NCBI GenBank assembly: GCA_022448945.1 | Contig: JAKVCV010000018.1 | Span: 42,179 to 102,364, forward strand | DNA length: 60,186 bases | Direction: 5' to 3' | Origin: Saprospiraceae bacterium | Lineage (GTDB): Bacteria > Bacteroidota > Bacteroidia > Chitinophagales > Saprospiraceae | Shown here: piece by piece, positions 15,048 through 59,260 of the stretch | Layout: each line of letters starts with the position of its first letter | How positions within the stretch are numbered: position 1 is the first letter of the stretch | Program-made: the position numbers and the translations under genes | Notes under the pieces: model-generated | The model's database searches: none | Told to the model about the DNA's origin: nothing | The model's input: only the letters and a program-made list of their open reading frames with translations

Positions 15048-15476
15048 AGGATATGATTGTTTTGCGTGTAAGTATAAGGTTTTAAACATATATCTATAAA
15101 AATTTCACTAGGTATATTAACAAACAAATGTCTGTTAGAAATTACGTTTACGATAAAAAATGAAAATTTAACGTAAAATATGTATCTGGTTGGGCTATAA
15201 CAATAACGAACCTCAAATTATATTTGTTGCCTGTATCAAACCGGAATAACAGAATTATTATAGTTAAAATTTTAAATCATAAAAAAACATTAGCTTAAAT
15301 TATCTATAAACGAAAATAAAATATAAAGTTAAATCCCAAAAACTAAAAGAGTTTAAATAAAAAAACAATAAAAATCATTTACTTATTTTATATACATCAT
15401 ATTGATTATCAATTAAAACAAAGGGTATTTGATCGAACCTATAAAAAAATTATCTTAATCAAATCTTAATCTTTAA
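15048..15476. other. AT-rich intergenic region upstream of the giant adhesin
   Basis: These 429 bases lie between the giant gene and the small minus-strand gene upstream of it. The stretch is very AT-rich, with many short A and T runs. It presumably holds the adhesin promoter and leader. I found no clear TAnnTTTG box on the minus strand, no convincing hairpin and no additional gene. Confidence 0.5.
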
Positions 15477-38643: not shown

Positions 38644-39852
38644 GTGTACAAAAAACTAAAAAAAATAGGCCCTGGAGCAGTCATTGCAGCTGCATTTATT
38701 GGTCCAGGAACGGTGACAACTGCTACTATTGCAGGTAGCAGTTATGGTTATACGCTTTTATGGGCAGTAATATTTTCAGTTTTTGCAACATATATTTTGC
38801 AAGAAATGTCTGCACGACTTGGTGTAATTGGTGGCATAGGTGTAGGTCAAGCTATCCGGAAGAAAATAACAAATAAAAGCCTTAGGATAGTTGCTTCAGT
38901 TTTAATAATCGGAGCTGTATTTATAGGCAATGCCGCTTATGAAGCTGGAAATATTACTGGTGCTGTTTTAGGTTTTAATGATTGGTTTGATCAGTGGTCA
39001 TTAAATCCTTTAATTTTAGTAATCGGTTTAGTTGCATTTATGCTATTGTACAGTGGTAAATACTTATTCATTGAACGTTTTTTAATAGCTTTGGTAGCAA
39101 TAATGGGTTTAGTTTTTATCATTGCTTGTTTTGTAGTACAACCAGACTTTATTCAAATATTGCAGGGCATGTTTGTACCTTCAATTCCTGAAGGTGCATT
39201 ATTAATGGTAATAGGATTAATTGGAACAACAGTAGTGCCATACAACTTATTTTTACACGCTTCGTCTGTTCAAGAACACTGGTCAGGTAAAAAAGATTTG
39301 CATATATCCAGGCTCGACACCCTATTATCAGTTGTTTTAGGAGGAATTATAACAATGGCTATTCTTATTACTGCTGCTGTAACTTTTGAGGAGATAAATC
39401 AAGCAGTAACAACAAAAAATCTGTCTGAAGGATTAACACCGATCTTTGGCAATTTTTCTGCCCTGTTTCTTGGCATTGGCTTTTTTGCTGCTGGCATTTC
39501 TTCGGCAATAACAGCTCCCCTTGCAGCTGCCTTTGCAACTTCTGAAATTTTAGGGTGGGACAAACAATTAAAAGGGAAAAAATTCAGAATAGTATGGATG
39601 TCCGTTTTGTTTTTCGGCCTGTTTTTTTCCTGCCTTGGTTTTAAACCAACACTCGTTATCTTATTTGCTCAAGTTGCGAATGGAATTTTATTACCTATTA
39701 TTGCAATATTTTTACTATGGATTATGAACGATAAATCAATCATGGGAAAATATATCAATTCTACTTTGGTAAACATTCTAGGTTTGATTATTATTGGCAT
39801 AACTTTAATGCTAGGTTTGAAGCAAATTTTATCAGCATCAGGTTTATTATAA
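38644..39852 (+). CDS. NRAMP-fold transporter lacking the metal-binding residues
   Basis: A 402-aa inner-membrane protein with about 11 membrane segments and NRAMP family similarity. The family's metal ligands are missing: helix 1 reads AFIGPGTVTTATIAG where IDPGN is expected (Asp to Gly, Asn to Thr), and helix 6 reads GTTVVPYNLFLHASS where VMPH is expected (Met to Val, His to Tyr). It starts with GTG at 38644 (the following YKKLKKIGPGAVIAAAF fits the family start). It is 15 bases upstream of pxpA and leads the operon, as YcsG does beside the pxp homologues of Bacillus subtilis. This suggests that the substrate is 5-oxoproline or a related organic acid rather than Mn or Fe; that is inference. 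Confidence 0.88.
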   Translation: MYKKLKKIGPGAVIAAAFIGPGTVTTATIAGSSYGYTLLWAVIFSVFATYILQEMSARLGVIGGIGVGQAIRKKITNKSLRIVASVLIIGAVFIGNAAYEAGNITGAVLGFNDWFDQWSLNPLILVIGLVAFMLLYSGKYLFIERFLIALVAIMGLVFIIACFVVQPDFIQILQGMFVPSIPEGALLMVIGLIGTTVVPYNLFLHASSVQEHWSGKKDLHISRLDTLLSVVLGGIITMAILITAAVTFEEINQAVTTKNLSEGLTPIFGNFSALFLGIGFFAAGISSAITAPLAAAFATSEILGWDKQLKGKKFRIVWMSVLFFGLFFSCLGFKPTLVILFAQVANGILLPIIAIFLLWIMNDKSIMGKYINSTLVNILGLIIIGITLMLGLKQILSASGLL

Positions 39853-39867
39853 TGGGAATATTGTAAA

Positions 39868-40623
39868 ATGAGAATAAAAAAGATTGACATTAACTGCGAC
39901 ATGGGTGAAACTACAGAACAGTCAAAAATGGAAATTGACAAACAAATATTCCCCTATATTTCCTCATGTAATATCTCTTGTGGTTTGCATGCTGGAAATC
40001 CACTCTATATTGAAAAGACTATTAGAGGAGCAATAGACCATAATTTACGGATTGGTGCACACCCCTCCTATCCAGATCGCCAAGGTTTTGGAAGAATAAA
40101 AATGAATCTAGCAACATCTGAACTAAAAGCAATAATTAAAGATCAGATATCTGCATTAAAAGGATTAACCGAAAGTTGTGGAGGCAAATTAGAATATGTC
40201 AAACCTCATGGAGCATTATACAATGAAATGGCTAAAAACGAGGAAGAGGCGATACATGTTATAGAAGTAATTCAAACAATTGATACTAATTTAGCAATAA
40301 TGGGTTTAGCTGGAAGCCAATTAGAACAAATAGCAAAAAAAATGGGTATTAATTTTATAAGTGAAGCCTTTGGAGACAGGTATTATGAAGCAAATGGAAA
40401 ATTGAGATCACGAAAAAAAAAGAAAGCTGTAATTAATGATGCCCAAGAGGCTATTGATCAAATATTGAACATAGTTTTAGAACAAAAAGCAATAGCATTT
40501 GATGGGAATAGCATACCAATAAGAGCACAAAGTATATGTATTCATGGTGACAATCCGGCTGTTTTAGATATATTAAAACTAGTACATAAAAATTTCAAAA
40601 AAAATGGTATTCAACTAATTTAA
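39868..40623 (+). CDS. pxpA: 5-oxoprolinase subunit A (LamB/YcsF family)
   Basis: One of three subunits of the prokaryotic ATP-dependent 5-oxoprolinase, which opens 5-oxo-L-proline to L-glutamate. The 251-aa protein shows the family signatures in order: KIDINCDMGETTEQ (4-17), SCNISCGLHAGNP (about 32-44), IGAHPSYPDRQGFGR (about 63-77), YVKPHGALYNEM (about 108-119) and ISEAFGDRYYEANGKLRSR (about 163-181). All expected Asp, His and Lys positions are present. ATG at 39868 is the only sensible start. pxpB follows after five bases and the NRAMP-like gene precedes it by 15, so the group is one transcript. Confidence 0.95.
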   Translation: MRIKKIDINCDMGETTEQSKMEIDKQIFPYISSCNISCGLHAGNPLYIEKTIRGAIDHNLRIGAHPSYPDRQGFGRIKMNLATSELKAIIKDQISALKGLTESCGGKLEYVKPHGALYNEMAKNEEEAIHVIEVIQTIDTNLAIMGLAGSQLEQIAKKMGINFISEAFGDRYYEANGKLRSRKKKKAVINDAQEAIDQILNIVLEQKAIAFDGNSIPIRAQSICIHGDNPAVLDILKLVHKNFKKNGIQLI

Positions 40624-40628
40624 AGCTT

Positions 40629-41345
40629 ATGGTTTTTAGTCCTTATGGCGATAAAGCAATTCTAATAAATTTTGTACAGGAAATATCATTAGAAACAAAT
40701 AAAAAAGTTATTGCTCTAAACAACGCAATAGCCTCCGCTCAATTAAAGGCGATTGAATACTGTATTCCTGCCTATTGTTCCTTAACAGTTGGTTACAACC
40801 CTCTGCTAACAAGCTATAATAGCTTATGTAAAAAAATAAAATCATTATCAACAAATAGGAATTCTAATTATAAAGGCACTTCTGAAAGAACACTTAATAT
40901 TCCTGTTTGTTATGAAGAGCCTTATGCTCTAGATTTTGACGAATTAATTGAACAAACCAACCTAACTAAAAAAGAAATTATTGACTATCATACCTCAACA
41001 AATTTCAGAGTCTACATGTTAGGTTTCATGCCGGGTTTTGCATATATGGGCAAGTTGCCCCAGCCTTTATATTGTAACCGAAAAAAAGAACCCAGATTAA
41101 ATATAGCTCCCGGTTCATTGGGGCTGGCAGGACTTCAAACTGGAATATATCCCTTTGAATCTCCTGGAGGATGGCAAATTATTGGTAGAACCCCAATTCC
41201 TCTTATCAACCCAGAGGAAAATAAAACCTTTTTATTTAAACCTGGTGATCTTGTTTGTTTTAACGCAATTTCTAATTCGAGTTTTTTAAAAATTCAAAAC
41301 GACGTTTCATCTAATCATTTTAATTGGGAAAGCATCTATGGCTAA
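40629..41345 (+). CDS. pxpB: 5-oxoprolinase subunit B (KipI/AHS1 family)
   Basis: A 238-aa subunit of the PxpABC enzyme, belonging to the CT_C_D/AHS1 family that includes KipI of Bacillus. Signatures: YGDKAILINFVQEISLETN at the start (residues 5-23), VCYEEPYALDFDELIEQTNL (about 94-113), FMPGFAYMGKLP (about 134-145), PRLNIAPGSLGLAGLQTGIY (about 154-173) and ESPGGWQIIGRTP (about 176-188). KipI-type naming comes from an effect on sporulation kinase in Bacillus, which is not relevant here because no sporulation genes exist. It overlaps pxpC by eight bases, indicating translational coupling. Confidence 0.94.
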   Translation: MVFSPYGDKAILINFVQEISLETNKKVIALNNAIASAQLKAIEYCIPAYCSLTVGYNPLLTSYNSLCKKIKSLSTNRNSNYKGTSERTLNIPVCYEEPYALDFDELIEQTNLTKKEIIDYHTSTNFRVYMLGFMPGFAYMGKLPQPLYCNRKKEPRLNIAPGSLGLAGLQTGIYPFESPGGWQIIGRTPIPLINPEENKTFLFKPGDLVCFNAISNSSFLKIQNDVSSNHFNWESIYG

Positions 41346-42210
41346 GGAAGCAATTTTTTATTTCGAAAAAGCAGGATTGTATACTACCCTTCAAGGTGCA
41401 GGCAATAAAGGGCAACAACATTTTGGATTGCCCATTGGAGGACCAATGGACCAGACATCAGCAAAAATTGCGAATTGGTTAGTTGGTAATGAAGCACAAG
41501 CAGCCGTTCTGGAAATTACTATGATGGGCCCTGAAATCATAGTTAAAGGTGATTGTAAAATTGCAATTACAGGTGCAGATATGTCTCCTAAGCTTAATGA
41601 TAAACCAGTCTCTATGTATAATACTATTGCAATAAAAAGTGGTTCAAAAATCAGTTTTGGAAGATTAAATTCAGGATGCAGGACATATTTAGCAATTGGA
41701 GGAAAAATCTCAGAAAATAAGTTATGGTCAAACAATGTCAGTTATGCTTTAAACAACGACAACTTTGTATTCAACAAAAAAATTGAACAAAACAGTTCAT
41801 TAAGCTTTAAAACAAACGGATCTGTTGAAATTAAAAACCATGTAGAAAAAAGGCCGTTACTTTTCAATAATAAAATTGACGTCAGAGTCGTACCAGGTCC
41901 TGAATACAATTTATTTTCTAAACAAGCTATTAAATCATTTTTTGATAATAAACACTATATTTCTAATCAATCCGATCGTATAGGATACAGATTAAGAGAA
42001 ACACTAAAACATTGTAATCAGAATCAGGAAATCATCTCTTCGGGAATTATTCCTGGAACTATTCAGGTTACAAGTTCCGGCAAAGCAATTATCTTAATGA
42101 ATGATGCTCCAACAATAGGTGGTTACGCTCGTATTGCAAATATTATAAGTACTTACATGGACAATGTTGCACAGTTAAAACCTGGAGATCAAATTTCATT
42201 TTCTATATAA
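41338..42210 (+). CDS. pxpC: 5-oxoprolinase subunit C (KipA/AHS2 family)
   Basis: A 290-aa subunit of the PxpABC enzyme, of the CT_A_B/AHS2 (biotin-dependent carboxyltransferase-like) family. Signatures: GLYTTLQGAGNKGQQHFGLP followed by IGGPMDQTSAKIAN (about 12-45), LEITMMGPEI, CKIAITGADM, RTYLAIGGKI, VRVVPGPEYNLF (about 183-194), SNQSDRIGYRLR (about 211-222), SGIIPGTIQVTSSGKAIILM and a final DAPTIGGYARIANI. Together with pxpA and pxpB it completes the enzyme, which salvages 5-oxoproline formed from glutamine and glutathione breakdown. It is the last gene of the tight cluster; the MTHFR gene starts 99 bases later. Confidence 0.94.
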   Translation: MAKEAIFYFEKAGLYTTLQGAGNKGQQHFGLPIGGPMDQTSAKIANWLVGNEAQAAVLEITMMGPEIIVKGDCKIAITGADMSPKLNDKPVSMYNTIAIKSGSKISFGRLNSGCRTYLAIGGKISENKLWSNNVSYALNNDNFVFNKKIEQNSSLSFKTNGSVEIKNHVEKRPLLFNNKIDVRVVPGPEYNLFSKQAIKSFFDNKHYISNQSDRIGYRLRETLKHCNQNQEIISSGIIPGTIQVTSSGKAIILMNDAPTIGGYARIANIISTYMDNVAQLKPGDQISFSI

Positions 42211-42309: not shown

Positions 42310-44064
42310 ATGAAGATTATAGATAGGATTAATAAAGAAATTAAGAACAAAAACATCTATTACTCTTTTGAATATTTCCCACCCAGAACAAAAATGGGAT
42401 TACAAAATCTATATGTCAAATTAGATAAAATGAGTGCTTTAGAACCCCTTTTTATTGATGTAACTTGGGGAGCAGGTGGAAGTACATCGGACCTCACATT
42501 AGACATTTGCAAAAACACTCAAAAGTTCCTTTGTTTAGAAACTCAAATGCACCTAACTTGTACAAATATCAACAAGGCATTAGTTAAAAAGACTTTAGAC
42601 GATGCAAAAAAACATAACATTAAAAATATCTTAGCCCTCAGAGGTGACCCACCACATGGAGAAAGTTGGGTAGTTACAGATACTAATTTTCAGTATGCAA
42701 TAGATTTAGTTAAATACATTAGAAAAGAATATGGTGATTTTTTTGGCATAAGTGTTGCCGGTTATCCAGAGGGGCATCCAGACGGCAATTATGAGGCTGA
42801 CCTTGAATACCTGAAAATGAAGGTAGATGCTGGTGCTGACTTTATAATCACTCAATTATTTTATGATGTTGATAAATTTCTGAAATTTGTAGAAGATTGT
42901 AGAAAAATAGGTATTAACTGTCCTATTTTACCTGGTATTCTTCCTATCATCAACTACAATAATTTCCGAAGAATGGTTGGTTTTTGTAATGTTCACGTTC
43001 CAGAACAAATTTGGGATGATCTAAAAAACATTAAAGACAATGATGAGGAAGTTGCCAAATATGGAATAAAAGTGATAACTGATATGTGCCAAAAAATTAT
43101 AGACAACGGTATATACGGTTTACATTTTTACACCTTAAATCGTGAAGACACATGTAAAAAAATTATTAGCAATTTAAATTTGATGGACAGTATTCCAAAC
43201 AAAAGAGAATTGCCATGGAAATCACGAATTGACACCAATGAAAGCACACGACCTATTTTCTGGGCGAATGCAAGAAAGTATTATATAGAAAGAACAGATG
43301 ATTGGGATCATTTCCCTAATGGTAGATGGGGAGATTCTGACGACCCACAATTTGGTGATATTATGGATTACCATTTATTTGGTATAACTTCTGGATCCAT
43401 CAAATCAAAGAAAAAATTCTGGGGAGAATCATTAAATGGAATAGATGATGTCACTAAAATTTTTGTAGATTTTTTATCTAATAAAATTAAATATATCCCA
43501 TGGTGTGACTACAAAGCCTCTGAAACAGATCTCATCACTGATGATCTATTAGAATTAAATAAAAAAGGATATTTTACAATAAATAGTCAACCAAAAGTTA
43601 ATGGCTTACCTTCAGATGACAAAGATGGCTGGGGTGGCCCTGGAGGTTTTTTATATCAAAAAGAGTATTTTGAATTTTTCTGCTCTAAAGAAGACTTCGA
43701 AAAATTAAATTTATCAGATAAAGCCCTATCCTACTGTGCAATCAACATCAATAATGAGATACACACAAATTGCGAAAACTGCACCATTGCTGTTACCTGG
43801 GGTGTATTCCCTAATAAAGAAATTATTCAACCCACAATAGTAGATTATAATAGTTTTTTAATTTGGAAAGATGATGCATTTGGTTTATGGTTAAATGAAT
43901 GGGGTAATATTTATGAAAAAGAATCCAATTCATACAAACTTCTTAAACAAATACACGATACTTATTTTTTGGTTTTCATAGTAGATAACGACTACATCAA
44001 TGGCAACCTATTGAAAAAAATAAAAAATGAAAATCATAATAAGAATGAAAAAACAATACTTTGA
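42310..44064 (+). CDS. Two-domain methylenetetrahydrofolate reductase of the eukaryotic type
   Basis: Reduces 5,10-methylene-THF to 5-methyl-THF for methionine synthesis using bound FAD. At 584 aa it is about twice the length of bacterial MetF (about 300 aa). Residues 1-290 are the catalytic barrel: YSFEYFPPRTKMG with the catalytic Glu, DVTWGAGGSTSD, THLTC-like MHLTCTN, LRGDPPHGE, AGYPEGHPDGNYEADLEYLK, DFIITQLFYDV and a closing GLHFYTLNRE. The linker and residues about 300-575 match the SAM-binding regulatory half of animal and fungal MTHFR: RPIFWANARKYYI, WDHFPNGRWGDS, YFTINSQPKVNG, VTWGVFPNKEIIQPTIVD, FLIWKDDAFGLWLNEWG and IHDTYFLVFIVDND. There are no introns, and base use is like its neighbours. 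Regulation by SAM and acquisition from a eukaryote are inferences. It converges with the YfcC gene. Confidence 0.93.
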   Translation: MKIIDRINKEIKNKNIYYSFEYFPPRTKMGLQNLYVKLDKMSALEPLFIDVTWGAGGSTSDLTLDICKNTQKFLCLETQMHLTCTNINKALVKKTLDDAKKHNIKNILALRGDPPHGESWVVTDTNFQYAIDLVKYIRKEYGDFFGISVAGYPEGHPDGNYEADLEYLKMKVDAGADFIITQLFYDVDKFLKFVEDCRKIGINCPILPGILPIINYNNFRRMVGFCNVHVPEQIWDDLKNIKDNDEEVAKYGIKVITDMCQKIIDNGIYGLHFYTLNREDTCKKIISNLNLMDSIPNKRELPWKSRIDTNESTRPIFWANARKYYIERTDDWDHFPNGRWGDSDDPQFGDIMDYHLFGITSGSIKSKKKFWGESLNGIDDVTKIFVDFLSNKIKYIPWCDYKASETDLITDDLLELNKKGYFTINSQPKVNGLPSDDKDGWGGPGGFLYQKEYFEFFCSKEDFEKLNLSDKALSYCAININNEIHTNCENCTIAVTWGVFPNKEIIQPTIVDYNSFLIWKDDAFGLWLNEWGNIYEKESNSYKLLKQIHDTYFLVFIVDNDYINGNLLKKIKNENHNKNEKTIL

Positions 44065-44088: not shown

Positions 44089-45495
44089 CTATTGATAATT
44101 TGTAATAACTGCTAAAATTAAAACAATCCAACAGAGCAACAACAAAATAGCTGCGAGTGGAAAAATGAACCTGATCCATCTATCAAGTGGCACCCGGCAC
44201 ATACTTAACATTGCAATTAATCCACCTAGTGCAGGGTTTATAAGATTAGTTATACCATCACCTATCTGATAGGCCAGAATCGTAGTTTGACGGGTCAGGC
44301 CCAGTACTTCGCCCAAAGGAATCATAACAGGCAATGAAGCCAGTGCCTGACCGCTCCCGGAAGGAATAAAAAAATTCAACACCGATTGAGAAATGGACAT
44401 AGAAATTGCTGCAGCATACAAAGGTAATCCCTGTAGTATTTCTGACAGGTGAAAGGACAAAGTATCGCCGATATTACCCATTTCCATCAATACTTTTATT
44501 GAAGTCGCATATCCAACCATAAATGCCCCTGGTGCTGCAATTGCAACAGAATCCAGTAAAGTTTCGCTCATCTTAGTAGCATTCATTTTTGATATTATAC
44601 CACATGCGAGAGCAATCATCAAAAATATTGCAGAAAGCTCATTGATATACCAATTCAAATTAAACACACCATACAAACTAACAGTCAACCCCAGGATAAA
44701 AATAAGGAGAACAAGCCAATTGTTGACCGTCATATTATATTCCTCGATTGGCTTATTTAATGACAACCCCTCCTCTTTAAGTCCATGTCCCAAGCCACTT
44801 TCAGGATTCTCACAAATCTTTTTAAAATACCTTACATTGTAATAAGCCATTATACACAAGGCGCTTAAGCACAAAACACTTCTTAGTAAAGCACCCGAAA
44901 ACAAAGGGAGTTCCGCAATTTTTTGACCTGTTCCTACAGTATAAGGATTTATTGGTGAAAGCCCAAAACCTACTGTCATAGCTCCAACTGATATTCCGGC
45001 TGCCAAAACAAGATCACCACCTAACGCCAAACTCAACACAGCAGCTATAGGTACAAGCGCAATATTATTTTCATATCCTACAGCAACCCCCAAAAATCCA
45101 TAAACAAAGGTCAGAATCACTACTATCAGATATTTTTTGCTGATCCCCATCCGCTTTACAAGAGTTCCTACACTATTCTCAATGGCTTTGGATTGTTCCA
45201 TAATCCCAAACATAATACCACCAGCAAGCACAATAAAAATAATTTCAACTGCAGATTTAAACCCCAATGGAATCGCTTTAAACATATCCAGTAAGCCTAC
45301 AGGAGTTGCTTCAATAATTTGATAAGAACCAGGTACTACCCTATTTCTACCATCTACAAGAATTCTTTCGTAAACACCTGCTGGAAGAAGATGAGTTAGC
45401 AGAGTCACAAAAAGAATCATTCCAAAAAGAATGGTAACGGAATGCGGAATACGCTGATGTAACTTTTTAAAAGTCTTTTTCTCCATGGTATTCAT
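44089..45495 (-). CDS. YfcC/DcuC-family membrane carrier
   Basis: A 468-aa inner-membrane protein with about 12 membrane segments, of the YfcC group of the C4-dicarboxylate/amino-acid carrier superfamily (PF03606). Signatures: RIPHSVTILFGMILFVTLLT, LPAGVYER, FIVLAGGIMFGIMEQ, GFLGVAVGYENNIALVPIA, VGAMTVGFGLSPINPYTVG, and near the end NFFIPSGSGQALASLPVMIP with AYQIGDGITNLINPALGGL. Members of this family are usually annotated as basic amino-acid or dicarboxylate carriers; the substrate cannot be read here. Start is ATG 45495 or the in-frame ATG at 45486. It converges with the MTHFR gene, 24 bases away, leaving little room for a terminator. Confidence 0.88.
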   Translation of the reverse strand: MNTMEKKTFKKLHQRIPHSVTILFGMILFVTLLTHLLPAGVYERILVDGRNRVVPGSYQIIEATPVGLLDMFKAIPLGFKSAVEIIFIVLAGGIMFGIMEQSKAIENSVGTLVKRMGISKKYLIVVILTFVYGFLGVAVGYENNIALVPIAAVLSLALGGDLVLAAGISVGAMTVGFGLSPINPYTVGTGQKIAELPLFSGALLRSVLCLSALCIMAYYNVRYFKKICENPESGLGHGLKEEGLSLNKPIEEYNMTVNNWLVLLIFILGLTVSLYGVFNLNWYINELSAIFLMIALACGIISKMNATKMSETLLDSVAIAAPGAFMVGYATSIKVLMEMGNIGDTLSFHLSEILQGLPLYAAAISMSISQSVLNFFIPSGSGQALASLPVMIPLGEVLGLTRQTTILAYQIGDGITNLINPALGGLIAMLSMCRVPLDRWIRFIFPLAAILLLLCWIVLILAVITNYQ

Positions 45496-48477: not shown

Positions 48478-48598
48478 TAAGTCCTTACTTAATAAATCTG
48501 TTTGGTTATTAATCAAAAAATACCTATTTTACTTTGTTTCCATTTTTTTACCTATAAAATAAAATTCGTTAACTCTAATTGTACAAATTATTTAATTG

Positions 48599-51500
48599 AT
48601 GCGACATGTAATCCTCTTGTCTATATGTAGTTTTTTCTTAGCCACATTAGGTATAAATTTTTTCCTAAGCACACCCATGTTTCAGGAAAAAAAATGTAAG
48701 CACGCGAGCCATTCCCATGGTAATCATACGCACAACCATGCACCTCCAATTGGAGGGTTTTGTGGATTTGATAGCATGCAATTGAATCTTTCCCCACAGG
48801 AAATACAACTACAAAATCAACTTGAACAACAATTATATAGTTTATTGCAAAAAGGGTACCCTACTTTTGGCAAGGCTCTGTATACCATCCCTGTAGTAGT
48901 GCATGTTGTACATAACAACGGTCCTGGAAACATCCCAAATACCCAGGTTACAGATGCTATACAACATCTTAACGATGCATTTGCTAATATTGGAGTGTAT
49001 AATCCTGCTACAGGAGTTGACGTTGAAGTACAATTTTGTCTTGCTCAACGTGACCCTGCAGGAAATACTACAAATGGTATTACAAATACTGTTTCTCCCC
49101 TGACAAATATGAATATGAATACGCAGGATTTAGCACTTAAAAATCTGATTCGCTGGAACCCTCTTGATTATGTCAATATTTGGGTAGTAAATGACATCCA
49201 GGGTGGTGTAGCTGGTTATGCTTATTTCCCATCCTCACACGGAAACAATAATGATGGTATTGTATTGGAATCAAATTTTATGGGTACCAATACGAATAAT
49301 TCAAAAGTTCTAGTACATGAAATGGGCCATTATCTGGGTTTATATCACACTTTTGAGGCTGGATGTACAAATAATGATTGCCTTGTTGATGGTGATAAAG
49401 TATGCGACACTCCTCCTGACAACACAACTGCTAACATACCTTGTTCTGCAATTTCAAACTCCTGTACAACAGATGAAGATGACCTATCTGCCAACAACCC
49501 TTTTCGTCCTATAGTTAACGGGGGACTTGGAGATCAAAATGATCAGATAGAAAATTACATGGATTATTCTGCTCTTGCTTGCTACGATCGTTTTACCGCT
49601 GGCCAAAAAGTAAGGATGCATTTTTTCCTTACAGGAACACGTGCAAGCTTACTGTCTTCTGAGGGTTGTCAGCCGCCCTGTACTAGTCCCATTAATATTG
49701 GATTTAATGCTTCAGCAACCACCATTACCACAGGAACAACTGTGAATTTTACTAATACAACTACAAATGGAGTTTCTTTTGAATGGTTCAACAATGCTAC
49801 ATCATTTGGCACAACAACTAACAACAGCCAGACTTTTAATACTCCGGGAATATTTAATATTGTTCTTGAAGCTAGTAATGGCGACCCTAATTGTACAGTC
49901 CGAGATTCTGTAACCATTACAGTTAATTGTGCAGCACAGGCAGCTTTCACTGCCAGTAGCAATGTGATTTCTACTAACGATGTCGTTTTTTTTACCGACA
50001 ATTCCAGTGGTGCAACATCCTACGAATGGTATGTCAATAATATTTTGGAGGGTACTGGTTCAAGTTTTAATTTTAGCTTCACTGCAATAGGGAATTATGA
50101 TGTTTTTTTAGTAGTTTCTGATGGTACATGTACTGACACCTCGTCTACAATAATCATTACAGTTACATCTTCAGGTTTGGCTCAAACTGGTCTACCTGTA
50201 TGGCCACTGGCTGTGAATGGCAATGTATTACCACAGATAGTTGATTGGCGCGATACCATTCCTGCAGTTAATACAATTTTTGCTACAACTACCAATGGAG
50301 GACAAACGGGAGCAGCCTTTAATGAATGTGGTCAACTTGCTTTTTATGTACTTCATACAGGTTCTGGCAACCAAAACAATCTTTTTATCTATGCTGACGA
50401 TGGCACACCATTATTAACCAATGGTACTGCTAATGCTCCAGGACTCGATGCAGTAAAAGGAGCTCAGGAAATACAAGTTATAAAAGTCCCTCTAACAAGT
50501 GATGAATGGTATATTATTTATAAAAAATGGACCACTGATGTCGGTGCAATAGGAAATAACGGAGGATATACTGAAGCGAATTGGCTATTTTCAAGAGTTC
50601 AGTATTCGGGAGGAAATATATTAAATATCATTCAAAGAGATATACCACTCGTAGATGCTACAGGAAATACCCATACGTATACTGATGGTGCGGCTGTATC
50701 AAGAACTGCAGGAGGTGTTAACAACCAACATTATCTTTATTTATGTAGACGTACTGCCGGTGTAAATAACGTTTCTCTCGATCGTTTTTTAATAACAAAT
50801 ACAGGTATTACTTTTGTAAGTAACACAGGAAATATACCAGCAACAACTTGGTCATTATCAATTGCTGGTTCACCAATAGAATTAAGCCCTACTGAAGATA
50901 AAATTGCAGTGGTTTGCAGAAACCAATCCGTCAACTATACAGATCTTGTTCTTTTTGATGCGAACTTATTCAATACAGCTTCAGCACAAACTATCAGCCT
51001 TGGTAATTTAATATTACAACCTGACGGCACTCCTATAGACCAGTCCAATATTCTTAATATTTCTGGTGCTGTTGATGTCATAGCTCTAAACAATTCTTTT
51101 CCGCTTAATTTTCTTCGAAATATGGAAAAGAAGGTTAATAATGTAGAATTCAGCCCTAATGGTCGTTTCTTATATTTTACAGCCGGAGGATATGTAGCAA
51201 GTGGCACTTCCAATGTTACCTATCTGGGACAAATTGACCTTGATCAAACTCCTTTCGAAGTTAGACTTCAGGTTCAAACTGTACCAAGTGGCCTTAATAT
51301 GTCAACAGGAGGAGGTTGTTTAACATCAAACACTACTTGTCTCAACTCATTAAATTCAGTTGTAGGTGTTGAATCATGTTTTGATGGAAATTTATACTTT
51401 AGCAAAAGGGCCTCAAGTACATTATTTGTAATTCCAGATCCAAATGGCTTTATGCCACAAAACCTTGTCCCATCAGATATTGATCTTTCTAGTCCAACAG

Positions 51501-54500
51501 AACCCAATATCAATATCAATGCAGGCATCCCTAGAATTTTACCGGATCAAATTGATGGCTTTAATTATCTATCAAATCAATTCAGAGAGGTAGAACTTAT
51601 TGTCCAAAAACTAGATTGTGATAATAATTGTGACTCTATCCCATATATACTTGAAATCACTGACAGTAGTGGAACTGTGGTAGAAAGTTTCCAAATCACT
51701 CAATGTCCTGATACGATTACGTTTTGTGCTGACACAGGTATAGTATATAGTTTAAGAGATACTACTGGACTAGTTTATCCTAATGCTATTTTTTATGGCT
51801 CAACACTATGCCCAAATGCTAACTGCATCTTTGATTTCACAGATAATTCAAACTGTGGTCAATTTATTTGTGACGGAAGTTTTTATCAAACTATTGGTGA
51901 CACCCTAGGATCTATGATCCTTTATGAAGTCTTTGATAATCCAGTTCAATTCAATCTTATTTCCAACCTATCTGCTAACGGCCTTTTTACAGGAATAAAT
52001 GCTATAGCTTATAACCCTGTCGACAATTTTATATATGGTATAAACAGTGGTATGCCACACCAATTATATAAAATTAACTCCTTTGGTATAGTTTCTCATG
52101 TAGGTAACATTACAGGACTTATGGGCAATAATTTTGTAGCTGGGTGCATGGATGGAAATGGCACTTACTATATCACAGGTAATAACCAATTTCTATATTC
52201 AATTGACATTAACACACTTGTTGCAACTCAAATTGGTACTTCTACAATAGTATCTGCAGATATAGCTTATAACCCTGCTAATGGTCTTTTATATGGTGTC
52301 GATGATATTGTAAACAGATTGATAAGCATAAATCCAATAACCTCCGCAATTACCCCTATAGGACCTCCTAACCCTCAATATTCTATGTTTGGTGCCTTAT
52401 ATTTCAATGCACAGGGTTCAATCATTGCTTATGGTGATAACGTAACCATTCCATCTATGGGACAAGAATCATTAGTTAGAATAAACCCTATTACAGGAGC
52501 AATTACACAGATAGGAATTGGCCCAAATGCTGGAACAAATGATGGCTGCTCCTGTCCTTTTGGAGTAGAATTAACGAAAGAGGCCCCATTATCTGTTCAA
52601 GCGGGAAGTACCTTTAGCTACACTTTTAAAATCTATAACAGGACTAGTTTTCCAATTACCAATGTTCAATTTTCTGATATTCTTACGAATGGTCTAGTCT
52701 GGACTTCAGAACCTCAAAACTTATCAGGAGTTACTATATCCGGAACTTCTATTACTGGATCGAATACTGCTATTTTTACCATCGACAGTCTACAAACAGG
52801 ATTAGATTCATTTACAATTGATGTTACGGTTCCATGTGTTTTTCCAGATACTATTTATAGTAATAGTGCTATGATTTCTGGGCTATCATCTACAATAACA
52901 ATTGCAGATACTGCTTTTTCTGACAACCCATTTACTGCCGCTATCAATGACACAACTGATATTATAATTACACCATACATAAATACTGAAACGCTGGACC
53001 TCGGTCCTGATACTTCTTTATGTGAAAATGCAGTTCTATTACTAAATGCAGGAGATGGTTTCAATAGCTATTTATGGCAAAACGGACATATAGATTCTTC
53101 TATTACTGTTAATGAAACTGGATTATATTGGGTTGAAGCAATTACAATCTGTGGAGATACACTTAGGGACAGTATAATAGTATCCTTTGATTCTATTGGT
53201 CTTCTGACATTAATAGACACAACTATTTGCTTAGGGGACACGCTAAATATAACCCTTGACAATAGTGTATTTTATCAATGGTTGCCAAACCAGGCGATCA
53301 GCTGTAACAACTGTTCCACTCCTAGCTTCTTTCCTTCTGCAACTACATCATATATAGCTATTACCAATAATGCATTGGGCTGTTTTTCTGTTGATAGTTT
53401 TACTCTAACTGTCGATTCCTGTTTTATTACATCAAGAATAGATACAAGCATTTGTCTTGGCACCTTTTTCTCATATGCAGGATCAAATATTCCTCCAAAT
53501 ACTATTGATACTATTACTCTAACCTCAAATCTTGGGATAGATTCATTTGTTATTGTAACAGTAACTGGTCTGGACACTTTCAATATTACTATTGATACTT
53601 CAGCTTGTGCAGGAGATAGTATATTCTTGAACAATCAGTTCCTTCAAGCTGGAACCACCACTACTTTTAACCTGCAAACCAGTAGTGGTTGCGATTCTAT
53701 TATTACTGTTAATGTAGCAAGCCTGGATACTTTTAATATTACCATTGATACTGCTGCATGTAATGGTGATAGTATTTTCTTTAATAATCAGTTCCTTCAA
53801 GCTGGAACCACCACTACTTTTAACCTGCTGACCAGTAACGGCTGCGATTCTATTATTACTGTTAATGTAGCAAATCTAAATTCTTTCAATACGATCATTG
53901 ACACTGCAACTTGTGCAGGAGACAGCATTCAATTTAATGCTCAATTCCTACAGGCGGGATCCTCTACTACTTTTAATCTGATTACAAATGATGGATGTGA
54001 CTCTATTATTACCGTTAATGTCGCAAGCCTGGATACTTTTAATATTACCATTGATACTGCTGCATGTAATGGTGATAGTATTTTCTTTAATAATCAGTTC
54101 CTTCAAGCTGGAACCACCACTACTTTTAACCTGCTTACCAGTAACGGCTGCGATTCTATTATTACTGTTAATGTAGCAAGCTTAGATACGTTTAACATTA
54201 TCATTGACACAGCAACTTGTGCAGGAGACAGTATTCAATTTAATTCTCAATTCCTGCAGGCAGGAACATCAACAACTTTTAATCTGCTTACAAACGATGG
54301 GTGTGATTCCATTATTACCGTTAATGTTGTAAGCCTGGATACTTTTAATATTACCATTGATACTTCTATTTGCGCTGGTGACAGCATTCAGTTTAATTCC
54401 CAGTTCCTCCAGGCGGGAACCTCTACTACTTTTAATCTGCTTACTAACAATGGATGTGATTCCATTATTACCGTTAACGTTGCAAGTTTCAATTCTTTCA

Positions 54501-57500
54501 ATACGATCATTGACACTGCTACTTGCGCAGGAGATAGTGTTTTCTTTAATGCACAGTTCCTACAGGCGGGAACATCCAATACTTTTAATCTGCTTACTAA
54601 CGATGGGTGTGACTCCATTATTACCGTTAACGTTGCAAGTCTGGATACTTTCAATATTACGATAGACACGGCGATATGTGCGGGAAACAATATTTTATTT
54701 AATGGCCAGATATTACAATCAGGCACTTCTACTACTTTTAATCTCCAAACATACAATGGTTGTGATTCTGTTATTACTGTTAATGTTGCCAGTTTAGATA
54801 CTTTCAATATTTCAATAGACACTATTATTTGTAACGGAGACAGTATCTTATTTAACGGGCAATTCTTGGATGCAGGAACCATAAATACATTTAACCTCCA
54901 GACGATAAGTGGTTGTGATTCTATCGTTACCGTTAATGTTCAATCATTTCCTATATCGTTTACAAGTTCCAGCACTAATGTTTCCTGTAATAATGGTAAT
55001 GATGGAACTGTTACAATAAATGTAAACGGTGGTTTAGGAGGATTTAATTTTATTTGGAACAACGGACAAACTGCGTCTACTGCTACTGGCCTGACCGCAG
55101 GAATATATTGCGTAACAGTTACTGACTCAATAGGGTGCTCCATAGATACTTGCATTACGATTAGTGAACCTGCTGCTTTAAGTAATATTTCTTTTTCTAC
55201 CCAAAATGTTAGTTGCTTTAATGCAAATGACGGACAACTTACTGCCAGTCTTAGTGGAGGTATCCAACCATATGACTTCCTTTGGTCCAATGGACAAACA
55301 GGTAGTATTGCAACAGGGCTTGATGCGAATATCCACAGCGTAACCATAACGGATGATAACGGTTGTACCATTACTGATAGTGCACCAGTGACCCAGCCAA
55401 TTCAACTTCAATTATCATTCAATATCGATTCTGTTCTGTGTAATAACGGAAATAGTGGACAAATTGAAGCAATTGTCTCAGGAAATACCACCCCACCCTC
55501 CTTCTTATGGGATGTTGCGGCTAACAATCAAAACACTGCTATTGCAACAGGCTTATCTGTTGGAAATTATTCCGTTACAGCTTCAGATTTATCAGGATGT
55601 ACAGTATCAGGAAATGCTACTGTTCAGGAACCAACACCCCTGATAGCTAATATTATTAACCAGAGCAACCCGCTTTGTAATAGTTTCTGCGATGGAATGA
55701 TAGAAGTGGATGCCCTTGGCGCTACTCCAAACTATTCATTTATCTGGACCAATGGGCAAACTACAAGTATCGCTACTGGTGTATGCTCTGGCAGCCATAA
55801 TGTGACAGTTACTGATGCCAATAATTGTACGATCTCCGTTGGAGGAGTACTTACCGATCCTGCACCAATAGTTGTAAACCCTCAGGTCCTATCTAATTTC
55901 AATGGCTCTCCTATTAGCTGCCCTGGTGCGGCAGATGGCTCGGTTGGCGTAACCGCTTCCGGAGGAACTGGAGGGCTCACATATACTTGGTCTCCTCTGG
56001 GCCAAAATACTGCCGTAATAAGCGGACTACTGGAAGATACTTATTGCGTTTCTGTAACCGATGCTGTTGGCTGTACTGCTGATACCTGCATTACCATCAG
56101 CGACCCGGTTCAATTAGCTGCTACGTTTACAAAGGTGGATGTTTTCTGTAACGGTGATACCAATGGACAGATCCTTGTGACGGCTACACCTGGTACAGGA
56201 ACGCTTGGAGTGAATGGTTATGAATATAAAATAACAGGCCCCGGACAATCCGGAAACGTCTTTAGTGCAGTAAACAACTTCAGTAACCTTGGTGCAGGAA
56301 CCTATACGATCGTCGTACGTGATGGTAATAACTGTGAGATACAACTTACTATTGATATTCTTGAACCACCGGCAGTCTTAATAGATTCTGTAGTGGTAGT
56401 GGATGCCCTTTGTTTTGGTGCGGCTTCAGGAACCGCTACGGCACACCCCTCTGGCGGAGTGGGCAACTTCACCTATCAGTGGAATAGCACGGCTGCAGGG
56501 CAAACTACTCAGACTGCAACAGGTCTGGCTTTTGGGGTTTACAGCGTTACTGTTATCGATAGCAATGGCTGCCACGAGGTGGATGTCTTTAATGTCGGAC
56601 AGGCAACACAATTAACTGGTTCTATTTCCGGTGGTACTATTCCCTGTATTGGTGGAATTGCTTCTGCTACTGCTAATGGCAATGGGGGAACTCCTATAGC
56701 AATTACATCTTATATTTATAACTGGACAAATGGACAAACAAGTGCAACGGCTGTAAATTTAGCAGCAGGAGTACATTGCGTTACTATAACAGATGCTAAT
56801 GCTTGTACCGTAGTCGAATGTGTTACCATTACAGCGCCTTCTACCGCTGTATCAGCATCCATTAGTGCCCAGACAGATGCCTTATGTCTGGGCTCCTCAG
56901 ATGGAACGGCTACTGCTCAGGGAGTAGGCGGAACCCCAGGATACACCTATGTATGGCAAACCATACCCAATCAAAATACCCAAATAGCCACAGGGCTTGC
57001 TGCAGGCAGCTATACGGTGGTTGTTACAGATACCAATGGTTGTACGGCACAAACTACAGTGACCATTAGTGAGCCTTCGTCTGCAGTGGCGGCTGTAATA
57101 ACAGGAACAAATAACACAAGTTGTAATGGTCAGGCAGATGGTGATGCTACGGTCAGTGGTAGTGGCGGAACTCCTGGATATACCTTCCTCTGGTCCAATG
57201 GTCAGACGGCTGCTATAGCTACCGGATTAAGCGTTGGCGTTTACGCTGTAACAGTAACGGACAACAATGGATGTACGACATCATTAACAACCAATATATC
57301 GGAACCATTGCCAGTAGATATTACACAAATCCTAACCACAGACGTAGCCTGTAAAGGCGATGCAACAGGAACAGCAAGTCTGTCCGTCAATGGCGGAACG
57401 CCCGGCTTTACTTATCAATGGAGCGGGGCTCTTGGACAAACAGGAACGCTTGCTACTGGACTGTCGGCAGGAAGCCATACGGTAACAGCGACAGATGTAA

Positions 57501-59260
57501 ACGGATGCTTTGACATCGACACCTTTGTCATTAGTGAACCAGCACAAGCCATGTCGGGAATATTGACCGGACAGGATGCCCTTTGTTTTGGATCGGCTAC
57601 GGGGGAGATCGGTGCGGTTGTCCAAGGTGGGACAGTTGCAGGCAACTACAGCTATGTGTGGAATACAGTACCTGTTCAAACTACGGTTATTGCAGACAGT
57701 ATTCCGGCAGGAACGTATACTGTGATAGTAACAGATGACCAGGGTTGTACCATTAGCCTTACAGGAACGATTGGAGAAGCTACTCAATTATTAATTAATG
57801 CTTCGATGCAGCAAGCCGTCACCTGCTTTGGTGGGAACGATGGTATTGCAACTGCCTCACCTGCTACAGGAGGAACACCAGACTATAATTACGTATGGTC
57901 TGATGCGCTCGGGCAAACAAGTCTAACAGCAACAGGATTGTCTGCAGGTGTCTATACTATAGTAGCTCAGGATACCAATTCGTGTACCGCCTCTTCATCC
58001 GTAACTATCACAGAAGATACCGAGATGACAGTCAATGAAAGTATCATCAATGTCAGCTGTTTTGGTGGTAATGACGGAAGTATAGATATTGTCAGTTCCA
58101 ACAAGAACATATCCAACTTTGTCTGGGATGTTGGTGTGGGAAATCCGATCATTGGTCTTTCTGCAGGGACTTACAGCCTAACGGCTACAGATATCAGTGG
58201 CTGTCAGAACAGCTTTAGCTTTACAGTAACTGAGCCTAATGAGTTAGTCATTAACATGGTACAGAGTGGAATAATCGCTTGTGCCGGTGACAGCAATGCC
58301 ATAGCAGAGATCAATACAACTGGAGGAACGCCAAACTACAGTTACAACTGGAGCAGTGGTCAGAGTACAAGCACAATAAACAACCTTGCACCCGGTAATT
58401 ATACAGTAACGGTTAGCGATAGTAAAGGCTGTATAAAAACAGAAAGCCTTGATGTTACTGAGCCAGAGCCACTAATGATAAATGGCACGACCACAGCTAC
58501 CCTTTGTGCGGGAGATTCTACAGGAACAATAGCAGCATTTGGTAGTGGAGGAACAACAAATACCGGACTATTAAGATACAGCCTTGACGGCACGAACTGG
58601 CAGACAGGAAATCTCTTTACAGGACTCCAGGCAGGTATTTATACGCTAACGATCGAAGACAATAATGGTTGTACCAAAGATACATTAATAGTTGTACAGG
58701 ATGCAGATCCGTTCTTTATCACCAATATGACACCGGACACTACTATGGAGTATCTGGACAGCCTGATGGTAGAGGCCGAGGTCAACGATACAGCTGGAGT
58801 ACTATTCAGTTGGACACAGCTGGAAGGAACAACCCCTGGTCTGATAACAGATAGCAGTTATAATTTTATTATAACACCTATTGAAAAAGTCACCTATCAA
58901 TTCACGGCGATCAATCCAAATGGATGTGAGTTGGACAGCATTGTGATTATCGATGTGAATATGATCAGAAGAGCCAATGCACCATCTGCCTTTACACCAA
59001 ATGATGACGGTGTAAACGACTTTTTCTTTATACAAGGTGGTGAAAAAGTTGAAGAAGTAACTATATTCAGGATCTATGACCGTTGGGGGAATCTGTTATT
59101 TGAAGGTAACAACCTTGATATCAATGTAGATATACAGGGCTGGAATGGGAAGTTCAGAGGTAAAAAAATGAACACAGGTTCATTTACCTGGTATGCTGAG
59201 GTGTTATTCAAGGATGGTCATACTGAAGTTATAAAAGGAGATGTTTTATTGTTGAGGTAA
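48599..59260 (+). CDS. Giant T9SS-secreted M43-like metalloprotease with SprB repeats
   Basis: A 3,553-aa secreted protein. ATG 48599 gives a signal peptide (to about residue 25); a TTG one codon earlier is ignored. A His-rich stretch (CKHASHSHGNHTHNH, about 32-46) precedes an M43/pappalysin-type protease with zinc site HEMGHYLGLYH (H240, E241, H244, H250) and a later Met region ENYMDYSALACYDRF. Then come two PKD-like domains (about 361-523), a long beta-rich region with propeller-like repeats (about 524-1320), a DUF11 domain (about 1321-1460), Ig-like domains, nine 51-aa repeats (1661-2119), about 16 SprB-like repeats (about 2120-3368) and a T9SS type B (CHU_C) sorting domain from APSAFTPNDDGVNDFFF. 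It should cross the outer membrane by T9SS and be held or released at the surface. The likely substrate is an extracellular protein; its identity is unknown. Confidence 0.95.
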   Translation: MRHVILLSICSFFLATLGINFFLSTPMFQEKKCKHASHSHGNHTHNHAPPIGGFCGFDSMQLNLSPQEIQLQNQLEQQLYSLLQKGYPTFGKALYTIPVVVHVVHNNGPGNIPNTQVTDAIQHLNDAFANIGVYNPATGVDVEVQFCLAQRDPAGNTTNGITNTVSPLTNMNMNTQDLALKNLIRWNPLDYVNIWVVNDIQGGVAGYAYFPSSHGNNNDGIVLESNFMGTNTNNSKVLVHEMGHYLGLYHTFEAGCTNNDCLVDGDKVCDTPPDNTTANIPCSAISNSCTTDEDDLSANNPFRPIVNGGLGDQNDQIENYMDYSALACYDRFTAGQKVRMHFFLTGTRASLLSSEGCQPPCTSPINIGFNASATTITTGTTVNFTNTTTNGVSFEWFNNATSFGTTTNNSQTFNTPGIFNIVLEASNGDPNCTVRDSVTITVNCAAQAAFTASSNVISTNDVVFFTDNSSGATSYEWYVNNILEGTGSSFNFSFTAIGNYDVFLVVSDGTCTDTSSTIIITVTSSGLAQTGLPVWPLAVNGNVLPQIVDWRDTIPAVNTIFATTTNGGQTGAAFNECGQLAFYVLHTGSGNQNNLFIYADDGTPLLTNGTANAPGLDAVKGAQEIQVIKVPLTSDEWYIIYKKWTTDVGAIGNNGGYTEANWLFSRVQYSGGNILNIIQRDIPLVDATGNTHTYTDGAAVSRTAGGVNNQHYLYLCRRTAGVNNVSLDRFLITNTGITFVSNTGNIPATTWSLSIAGSPIELSPTEDKIAVVCRNQSVNYTDLVLFDANLFNTASAQTISLGNLILQPDGTPIDQSNILNISGAVDVIALNNSFPLNFLRNMEKKVNNVEFSPNGRFLYFTAGGYVASGTSNVTYLGQIDLDQTPFEVRLQVQTVPSGLNMSTGGGCLTSNTTCLNSLNSVVGVESCFDGNLYFSKRASSTLFVIPDPNGFMPQNLVPSDIDLSSPTEPNININAGIPRILPDQIDGFNYLSNQFREVELIVQKLDCDNNCDSIPYILEITDSSGTVVESFQITQCPDTITFCADTGIVYSLRDTTGLVYPNAIFYGSTLCPNANCIFDFTDNSNCGQFICDGSFYQTIGDTLGSMILYEVFDNPVQFNLISNLSANGLFTGINAIAYNPVDNFIYGINSGMPHQLYKINSFGIVSHVGNITGLMGNNFVAGCMDGNGTYYITGNNQFLYSIDINTLVATQIGTSTIVSADIAYNPANGLLYGVDDIVNRLISINPITSAITPIGPPNPQYSMFGALYFNAQGSIIAYGDNVTIPSMGQESLVRINPITGAITQIGIGPNAGTNDGCSCPFGVELTKEAPLSVQAGSTFSYTFKIYNRTSFPITNVQFSDILTNGLVWTSEPQNLSGVTISGTSITGSNTAIFTIDSLQTGLDSFTIDVTVPCVFPDTIYSNSAMISGLSSTITIADTAFSDNPFTAAINDTTDIIITPYINTETLDLGPDTSLCENAVLLLNAGDGFNSYLWQNGHIDSSITVNETGLYWVEAITICGDTLRDSIIVSFDSIGLLTLIDTTICLGDTLNITLDNSVFYQWLPNQAISCNNCSTPSFFPSATTSYIAITNNALGCFSVDSFTLTVDSCFITSRIDTSICLGTFFSYAGSNIPPNTIDTITLTSNLGIDSFVIVTVTGLDTFNITIDTSACAGDSIFLNNQFLQAGTTTTFNLQTSSGCDSIITVNVASLDTFNITIDTAACNGDSIFFNNQFLQAGTTTTFNLLTSNGCDSIITVNVANLNSFNTIIDTATCAGDSIQFNAQFLQAGSSTTFNLITNDGCDSIITVNVASLDTFNITIDTAACNGDSIFFNNQFLQAGTTTTFNLLTSNGCDSIITVNVASLDTFNIIIDTATCAGDSIQFNSQFLQAGTSTTFNLLTNDGCDSIITVNVVSLDTFNITIDTSICAGDSIQFNSQFLQAGTSTTFNLLTNNGCDSIITVNVASFNSFNTIIDTATCAGDSVFFNAQFLQAGTSNTFNLLTNDGCDSIITVNVASLDTFNITIDTAICAGNNILFNGQILQSGTSTTFNLQTYNGCDSVITVNVASLDTFNISIDTIICNGDSILFNGQFLDAGTINTFNLQTISGCDSIVTVNVQSFPISFTSSSTNVSCNNGNDGTVTINVNGGLGGFNFIWNNGQTASTATGLTAGIYCVTVTDSIGCSIDTCITISEPAALSNISFSTQNVSCFNANDGQLTASLSGGIQPYDFLWSNGQTGSIATGLDANIHSVTITDDNGCTITDSAPVTQPIQLQLSFNIDSVLCNNGNSGQIEAIVSGNTTPPSFLWDVAANNQNTAIATGLSVGNYSVTASDLSGCTVSGNATVQEPTPLIANIINQSNPLCNSFCDGMIEVDALGATPNYSFIWTNGQTTSIATGVCSGSHNVTVTDANNCTISVGGVLTDPAPIVVNPQVLSNFNGSPISCPGAADGSVGVTASGGTGGLTYTWSPLGQNTAVISGLLEDTYCVSVTDAVGCTADTCITISDPVQLAATFTKVDVFCNGDTNGQILVTATPGTGTLGVNGYEYKITGPGQSGNVFSAVNNFSNLGAGTYTIVVRDGNNCEIQLTIDILEPPAVLIDSVVVVDALCFGAASGTATAHPSGGVGNFTYQWNSTAAGQTTQTATGLAFGVYSVTVIDSNGCHEVDVFNVGQATQLTGSISGGTIPCIGGIASATANGNGGTPIAITSYIYNWTNGQTSATAVNLAAGVHCVTITDANACTVVECVTITAPSTAVSASISAQTDALCLGSSDGTATAQGVGGTPGYTYVWQTIPNQNTQIATGLAAGSYTVVVTDTNGCTAQTTVTISEPSSAVAAVITGTNNTSCNGQADGDATVSGSGGTPGYTFLWSNGQTAAIATGLSVGVYAVTVTDNNGCTTSLTTNISEPLPVDITQILTTDVACKGDATGTASLSVNGGTPGFTYQWSGALGQTGTLATGLSAGSHTVTATDVNGCFDIDTFVISEPAQAMSGILTGQDALCFGSATGEIGAVVQGGTVAGNYSYVWNTVPVQTTVIADSIPAGTYTVIVTDDQGCTISLTGTIGEATQLLINASMQQAVTCFGGNDGIATASPATGGTPDYNYVWSDALGQTSLTATGLSAGVYTIVAQDTNSCTASSSVTITEDTEMTVNESIINVSCFGGNDGSIDIVSSNKNISNFVWDVGVGNPIIGLSAGTYSLTATDISGCQNSFSFTVTEPNELVINMVQSGIIACAGDSNAIAEINTTGGTPNYSYNWSSGQSTSTINNLAPGNYTVTVSDSKGCIKTESLDVTEPEPLMINGTTTATLCAGDSTGTIAAFGSGGTTNTGLLRYSLDGTNWQTGNLFTGLQAGIYTLTIEDNNGCTKDTLIVVQDADPFFITNMTPDTTMEYLDSLMVEAEVNDTAGVLFSWTQLEGTTPGLITDSSYNFIITPIEKVTYQFTAINPNGCELDSIVIIDVNMIRRANAPSAFTPNDDGVNDFFFIQGGEKVEEVTIFRIYDRWGNLLFEGNNLDINVDIQGWNGKFRGKKMNTGSFTWYAEVLFKDGHTEVIKGDVLLLR
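53579..54955 (+). repeat. Nine tandem 153-bp (51-aa) coding repeats
   Basis: The units run exactly in register without gaps, each encoding FNITIDTxxCxGDSIxFN, then QFLQAGTTTTFNL, then GCDSIITVNVASLDT. Units two and four (starting 53732 and 54038) are almost base-identical over the unit and differ at a CTG/CTT leucine codon in their core, while units eight and nine are more diverged. This points to recent duplication or gene conversion of a two-unit block. Each unit has two cysteines that could form one disulfide. Confidence 0.93.
54956..58700 (+). repeat. Array of about 16 SprB-like repeats in the protease-adhesin
   Basis: Each unit of 70-85 aa shows the pattern NVSCFGGNDGSI, then GGTPGYTYVWSNGQT, then ATGLSAGVYTVTVTDNNGC, then a ISEP-type linker. 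I counted about 16 unit starts. The DNA from about 55.9 kb onwards uses more G and C at third positions than the front of the same gene and than the left giant gene. Confidence 0.85.

Follow-up and report, generated by a model that had tools for sequence, protein, structure and literature searches.

The closest described relatives of the gene reported here are the two-domain MTHFRs of human and Chaetomium (PDB entries 6fcx, 8qa4-8qa6, 8uy1 and 8uy2), which join a catalytic barrel through a linker to a SAM-binding regulatory domain. Ordinary bacterial MetF (TIGR00676; E. coli, T. thermophilus) has the same barrel and reaction but ends after the barrel. A 2018 structural study calls the regulatory domain eukaryote-only and found its sequence nowhere but in eukaryotic MTHFR (PMC5995969), and a 2024 paper describes bacterial MTHFR as being without it (PMC11183114). 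Papers from 2018 to 2026 regard the domain as something that eukaryotes added and raise the question of why they evolved such an elaborate switch (PMC5995969, PMC11018872, PMC13001107). The standalone bacterial domain DUF6919 (PF21897) is said to be structurally related to the regulatory domain (PMC11701544). Among open-licence PMC papers, a set that lies apart from subscription papers and preprints, a search by title and abstract start found no report of a bacterial two-domain MTHFR.

We analyzed a 60,186-nucleotide stretch of DNA (the window) on a 102-kb contig of a Saprospiraceae genome. The open reading frame at 42310-44064 (+) starts with ATG, has no internal stops and encodes 584 amino acids. 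Its catalytic TIM-barrel domain (42325-43176 (+), residues 6-289; PF02219 MTHFR, E 4.1e-116) is followed within the same chain by a linker and SAM-binding regulatory domain (43204-44034 (+), residues 299-575; PF21895 MTHFR_C, E 8.6e-82, covering profile positions 2-296 of 301 in Pfam). The NCBIfam model TIGR00677 ("fadh2_euk") is passed at 409.1 bits against a cut-off of 310.05, and the general model TIGR00676 only narrowly (302.9 against 293.7). All six bacterial two-domain relatives examined also exceed the TIGR00677 cut-off, and the host's own ordinary MetF falls under it at 190.5 bits. The best PDB sequence matches run nearly end to end (human MTHFR 6fcx, E 3.9e-167; Chaetomium 8uy2, E 1.9e-160), whereas single-domain bacterial MetF chains align only to about residue 293. 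Thus the full C-terminal regulatory half proposed in the initial annotation is present, far beyond chance, and the strings that it named (RPIFWANARKYYI, WDHFPNGRWGDS and IIQPTIVD) occur in the translation. These results confirm that the frame is an intact, complete eukaryote-type two-domain MTHFR. Two other identities were rejected: (i) ordinary single-domain MetF, because the chain continues past the barrel, and (ii) DUF6919, because its match to residues 376-466 is weak (25.6 bits, under the curated 27-bit cut-off) and the window domain is fused to a barrel.

To look for relatives, we scanned 84,980 bacterial and archaeal species genomes for the C-terminal half with two exact peptide patterns. 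Because the patterns were exact, the 31 related loci obtained are a lower bound (at least 31). Thirty of them are bacterial; 29 hold a frame spanning both domains, and one (L016) is cut by a contig end. The remaining locus, L033 (JAIYDP010000498.1, a contig in a Verrucomicrobiaceae MAG), has a two-domain MTHFR gene interrupted by introns no longer than a few tens of bases and is therefore taken as a eukaryotic contig that ended up in a bacterial bin. Family searches added 13 further full-length bacterial two-domain MTHFRs, giving 42 besides that of the window. Their labels include Acidobacteriota (Thermoanaerobaculia, Holophagales, Vicinamibacteraceae), Neomarinimicrobiota, Planctomycetota, Oligoflexales, Deltaproteobacteria and Flavobacteriales. 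Two of the genes (L027 and L034) sit on contigs longer than 3.8 Mb, and neighbors of the relatives' genes include TilS, FtsH, Lon and a sigma-54 activator. The nearest relative, L004, from a MAG labelled Flavobacteriales UWMA-0021, is a full two-domain MTHFR with 61% identity to the window protein; its neighbors (aminotransferase IV, a sulfotransferase and a TPR protein) differ from the window's.

Within these groups the domain is scattered. PF21895 was found in 13 of 297 genomes of the acidobacteriotal phylum searched, 11 of 199 in Neomarinimicrobiota, 7 of 58 in the phylum of the Oligoflexales genome and 1 of 7 in the order to which L004's genome belongs; in the window organism's family and phylum it was found in 1 of 199 and 1 of 395 genomes, the window's own both times. 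For Planctomycetota the search used the catalytic family PF02219 only and is limited to the matches listed. The initial annotation had set a broad, vertically inherited bacterial clade against the idea of transfer; the breadth was found, and the occurrence is patchy. Many weaker PF02219 matches in Planctomycetota (G1100-G1247) and Acidobacteriota (G614-G759) lie in frames of about 600-700 amino acids, which we presume are probably homocysteine methyltransferase-MTHFR fusions.

In 25 of the 27 scan genomes searched with PF02219, the two-domain gene is the only MTHFR found. This search covered 27 of the 31 scan loci (L011, L013, L016 and L029 were left out), and nearly all relatives are MAGs, so that sole-copy status depends on completeness and an incomplete MAG could hide a second copy. 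The exceptions are a genome with a second, distant match (G596; E 9.5e-14) and the genome of the stray contig L033 (G613). L004 belongs to the majority: unlike in the window genome, its two-domain gene is the only MTHFR found. The methionine-synthase (MetH) activation domain was present in all 12 genomes queried, the window's own included, two of the matches being partial and weaker. Taken with the sole-copy result, this means that in most of these genomes no candidate other than the two-domain enzyme was found for the MTHFR step.

Of the 42 full-length relatives from bacteria, 36 entered the trees, in which eukaryotes were represented by human, Chaetomium, one stray protist and the catalytic domain of yeast Met12. 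When rooted on ordinary MetF (21, 33 or 16 single-domain rows, with 4, 8 and 11 near-copy two-domain rows dropped, respectively), the two-domain proteins, window catalytic domain included, formed one clade apart from single-domain MetF with support of 100/100 in each. This clade is firm, as is the pairing of the window protein with L004 (99/99 to 100/100 across the full-length and three rooted trees). In the full-length tree of 40 rows, where the pair had 100/100, bacterial rows came next nearest by path and eukaryotes fell on one side with support of 50/16. The catalytic tree with 33 outgroups placed Planctomycetota, eukaryotes, the window pair, Deltaproteobacteria and Acidobacteria in one group (84/86; 87/92 when Planctomycetota are left aside), with Oligoflexales, Neomarinimicrobiota and some Acidobacteria outside it. 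A combined-matrix tree with 16 outgroups united eukaryotes, the window pair, Deltaproteobacteria and Acidobacteria (92/92). None of these three groups was starred, and eukaryotes were split and long-branched in all three rooted trees. Approximately unbiased (AU) tests rejected none of the groupings tried: all bacteria as one clade (p 0.365, 0.385), eukaryotes as one clade (p 0.192, 0.583), eukaryotes with the window pair (p-AU 0.572, 0.274, 0.579), and the window pair with Deltaproteobacteria and Acidobacteria exclusive of eukaryotes (p 0.369). The trees therefore do not settle the direction of transfer or the donor.

There are at least two possibilities for the history of the family. Since scattered bacteria of several phyla carry the two-domain enzyme, the SAM switch may predate eukaryotes. 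We give an about even chance to a scenario in which the regulatory domain was joined to MetF in bacteria before eukaryotes possessed it, the resulting SAM-gated two-domain MTHFR still is, as a rule, the only MTHFR in scattered bacteria of several phyla, eukaryotes inherited the complete allosteric enzyme from a bacterium, and the window carries a lateral copy acquired late; in the best trees the few sampled eukaryotes are nested within bacterial diversity. Alternatively, bacteria could have received the gene from eukaryotes in one or a few ancient transfers, with later spread among bacteria, and the window's donor would still be bacterial. That all two-domain proteins form one clade, and that bacteria may be set as one clade beside eukaryotes in the AU test, are compatible with such a gift. 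We nevertheless consider it doubtful, given the Oligoflexales, Neomarinimicrobiota and some Acidobacteria that branch outside the eukaryote-holding groups, unstarred as those groups are, and the sole-copy status of the gene in many bacteria. Of the two origins that the initial annotation had left open, its "ancestral bacterial form" thus fits better, with a bacterial nearest relative, a multi-phylum set and a sole MTHFR in most genomes searched; transfer from a eukaryote fits less well, even though the AU test does not reject eukaryotes together with the window pair as one clade.

The same annotation had predicted inhibition by SAM and pointed to the SAM contacts of human MTHFR. By alignment, 16 of the 17 SAM-sensing or SAM-binding residues named in structural papers are identical between window and human: P302, W303, A319, F335, R339 and W340 (human P348, W349, A368, F384, R388 and W389); E405, T406, T423, S426 and Q450 (human E463, T464, T481, S484 and Q509); and T496, T509, W519, D243 and D245 (human T560, T573, W583, D289 and D291). 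The sole mismatch is human A292, which is E246 in the window. The catalytic residues E21, T52, T83, R111, Q182 and Y274 also match (human E63, T94, T129, R157, Q228 and Y321). We extended the comparison to 36 other bacterial proteins (L025, which contains an unknown residue, was excluded). In human numbering, E463, S484, Q509, T560, T573, W583, R388, W389, P348 and W349 are kept in all 36 and F384 in 35; D289 varies, and the A368 column holds Ser in 21 and Ala in 14.

Several of these residues fall in segments with described roles. The window protein carries, along with the SAM-site residues, the linker motif FPNGRW (43312-43329 (+), residues 335-340), identical to human 384-389, a segment reported to shape the second SAM site of human MTHFR (PMC11018872). 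E405-T406 (43522-43527 (+)) correspond to the reported ribose and sulphonium contacts of SAM site 1, human E463-T464, and TINSQ (43576-43590 (+), residues 423-427) to the adenine contacts, human 481-485 (PMC5995969). Q450 (43657-43659 (+)) is the counterpart of human Q509, described as bridging both SAM molecules (PMC11018872), and T496, T509 and W519 (43795-43866 (+)) are those of human T560, T573 and W583, assigned to SAM sites 1 and 2 (PMC5995969, PMC11018872). The predicted autoinhibitory finger reads YHLF (43369-43380 (+), residues 354-357), compared with YYLF at human 403-406; the role of this segment is described in PMC11018872 and PMC11183114. In the human enzyme, Tyr404 is reported to be essential for inhibition. 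At the Tyr404 column the window has His355; of the 36 other bacterial proteins, 24 have His there and 10 have Tyr. The finger is reported to be variable in lower eukaryotes as well (PMC11018872). Counting along a gap-free stretch puts the wedge residue Tyr361 of Chaetomium in the column of human Y403, which is occupied by Y354 in the window. Between PW and RPIF the linker hinge has three residues fewer than the human one, human Arg357 lacks a counterpart, and the protein has no N-terminal Ser-rich phosphorylation region.

Because the SAM-contact residues are kept, inhibition by SAM is a fair prediction from sequence. The enzyme would make 5-methyl-THF for methionine synthase, and SAM would most likely shut it off, as in human and Chaetomium MTHFR. 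A first SAM would occupy site 1 and a second site 2, built by the FPNGRW segment; the linker would then swing over, and the Y354/H355 finger would plug the FAD site, either residue possibly doing the blocking as in the known enzymes. A monomer model of the full-length protein (pLDDT 77.5, pTM 0.57) did not resolve the linker (residues 296-360). In a Foldseek search with this model, the top hits were 12 chains of the two-domain MTHFRs of human and Chaetomium, at a TM of about 0.5 and an rmsd of 12.6-15.7, so that the placement of the domains in the model is uninformative. It is also conceivable that the regulatory half serves dimerization or stability, or senses another ligand, and that SAM does not inhibit. 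His355 in place of Tyr404, the shortened hinge and the presence of an unregulated paralogue would suit this explanation, but the SAM contacts, conserved in the window protein and almost all of them in the 36 other bacteria, exceed the needs of a mere dimer domain, and Y354 shares its column with the Chaetomium wedge; we regard it as unlikely. The possible preference for NADPH suggested by the initial annotation gained no support. The helix-8 residues tied to NADPH, human Q267, K270 and L271, are R221, G224 and F225 in the window, and use of NADH or NADPH is reported to vary among eukaryotic two-domain MTHFRs (PMC13001107), so we make no cofactor prediction; NADPH is known as the regular donor in mammals only.

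Unlike human and Chaetomium MTHFR, the window gene is accompanied by an ordinary MetF: the host assembly (4.35 Mb, 99.15% complete, 0.22% contaminated) also encodes an intact one of 317 amino acids. Among 60 relatives, the host genome counted, 48 have an MTHFR match, and the window's is the only long, high-scoring two-domain frame among the matches listed. Seven of eight genus-mates have ordinary MetF and the eighth has no MTHFR match. With the host's own MetF kept and the genus-mates without a two-domain gene, lateral gain beside ordinary MetF, most likely from another bacterium, fits best. Codon use and GC of the gene resemble those of its neighbors (codon log-odds 0.156, against 0.087-0.209 for ten other window genes) and give no foreign signal of recent transfer. 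Searches for the regulatory half on phages and plasmids gave no match, and no viral contig carried it. A direct eukaryotic gift to the shared ancestor of the window organism and L004, separate from the origin of the other bacterial copies, would account for the patchiness (1 of 395 in the phylum, 1 of 199 in the family, 1 of 7 in L004's order); it also agrees with the AU result for eukaryotes plus the window pair and with the rooted trees, where eukaryotes share a loosely supported group with that pair. We find such a gift quite improbable, because the closest relative found is a bacterium and the gene has a pool among bacteria, other bacteria outscore the three eukaryotes on the catalytic domain with one exception, and neither introns nor a spacer or composition signal was seen. 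In BLAST, all bacterial rows but one outscore human on the catalytic domain; on the regulatory domain human outscores five bacterial rows.

The gene lies 99 bases downstream of a same-strand run (38644-42210 (+), by Pfam and NCBIfam) consisting of an Nramp metal transporter followed by pxpA, pxpB and pxpC (39868-42210 (+)), the known PxpABC set of 5-oxoprolinase subunits. A convergent DcuC/YfcC-like transporter follows at 44089-45495 (-). The operon context claimed by the initial annotation is its weak point: the gene may be co-transcribed with Nramp-pxpABC, but neither these genes nor the YfcC-like one belong to methionine or folate metabolism, and a methionine operon is not supported. No methionine-cycle enzyme was named among 20 neighbor proteins at eight relatives' loci (several had no Pfam match), no SAM riboswitch was found at the Rfam gathering level in the window or six loci, and promoter and terminator signals were no more frequent than in shuffles. 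Elsewhere in the window are an open frame of at least 5029 amino acids running off its left end (3-15089 (-)) and a 3554-amino-acid protein with SprB repeats and a C-terminal CHU_C type IX secretion signal (48596-59260 (+)), in the middle of which (53570-54855) a 153-base unit is repeated about 8.4 times. That signal and the type of MetF together suggest Bacteroidota. An assembly artefact or eukaryotic contamination, of which one scan locus in 31 (L033) is an example, has a negligible chance of explaining the window, given its 102-kb contig in a nearly complete and barely contaminated genome, bacterial genes on both sides, an intron-free frame with own-like codon use and the bacterial sister L004.

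Taken jointly, it is probable that the window encodes a genuine bacterial MTHFR, most likely SAM-inhibited, from a patchy multi-phylum bacterial lineage, gained laterally as a second copy, most likely from a bacterial donor. The gene, its domains, residues and relatives, its sole-copy status elsewhere and its second-copy status here are observations; we infer enzyme activity, SAM inhibition and the donor. Against this reading stand His355 at the essential human Tyr404, the shortened hinge and the missing Arg357. In addition, the host's ordinary MetF should escape SAM control, which makes a physiological gain from the second copy hard to explain.

The gene is ordinary as chemistry and unexpected as taxonomy: it adds a new bacterial member, and with it a wider set from bacteria, to a family that has been described as eukaryotic. 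Because the NCBIfam model would name bacterial two-domain proteins MTHFR, databases may hold such enzymes unremarked. Were a SAM assay positive, these would be, to our knowledge and in the open-licence PMC literature, the first bacterial MTHFRs known under direct SAM feedback. They offer small enzymes free of the phosphorylation layer for studies of the switch, and, with complete bacterial versions whose SAM sites are intact, the origin of the switch becomes a testable question.
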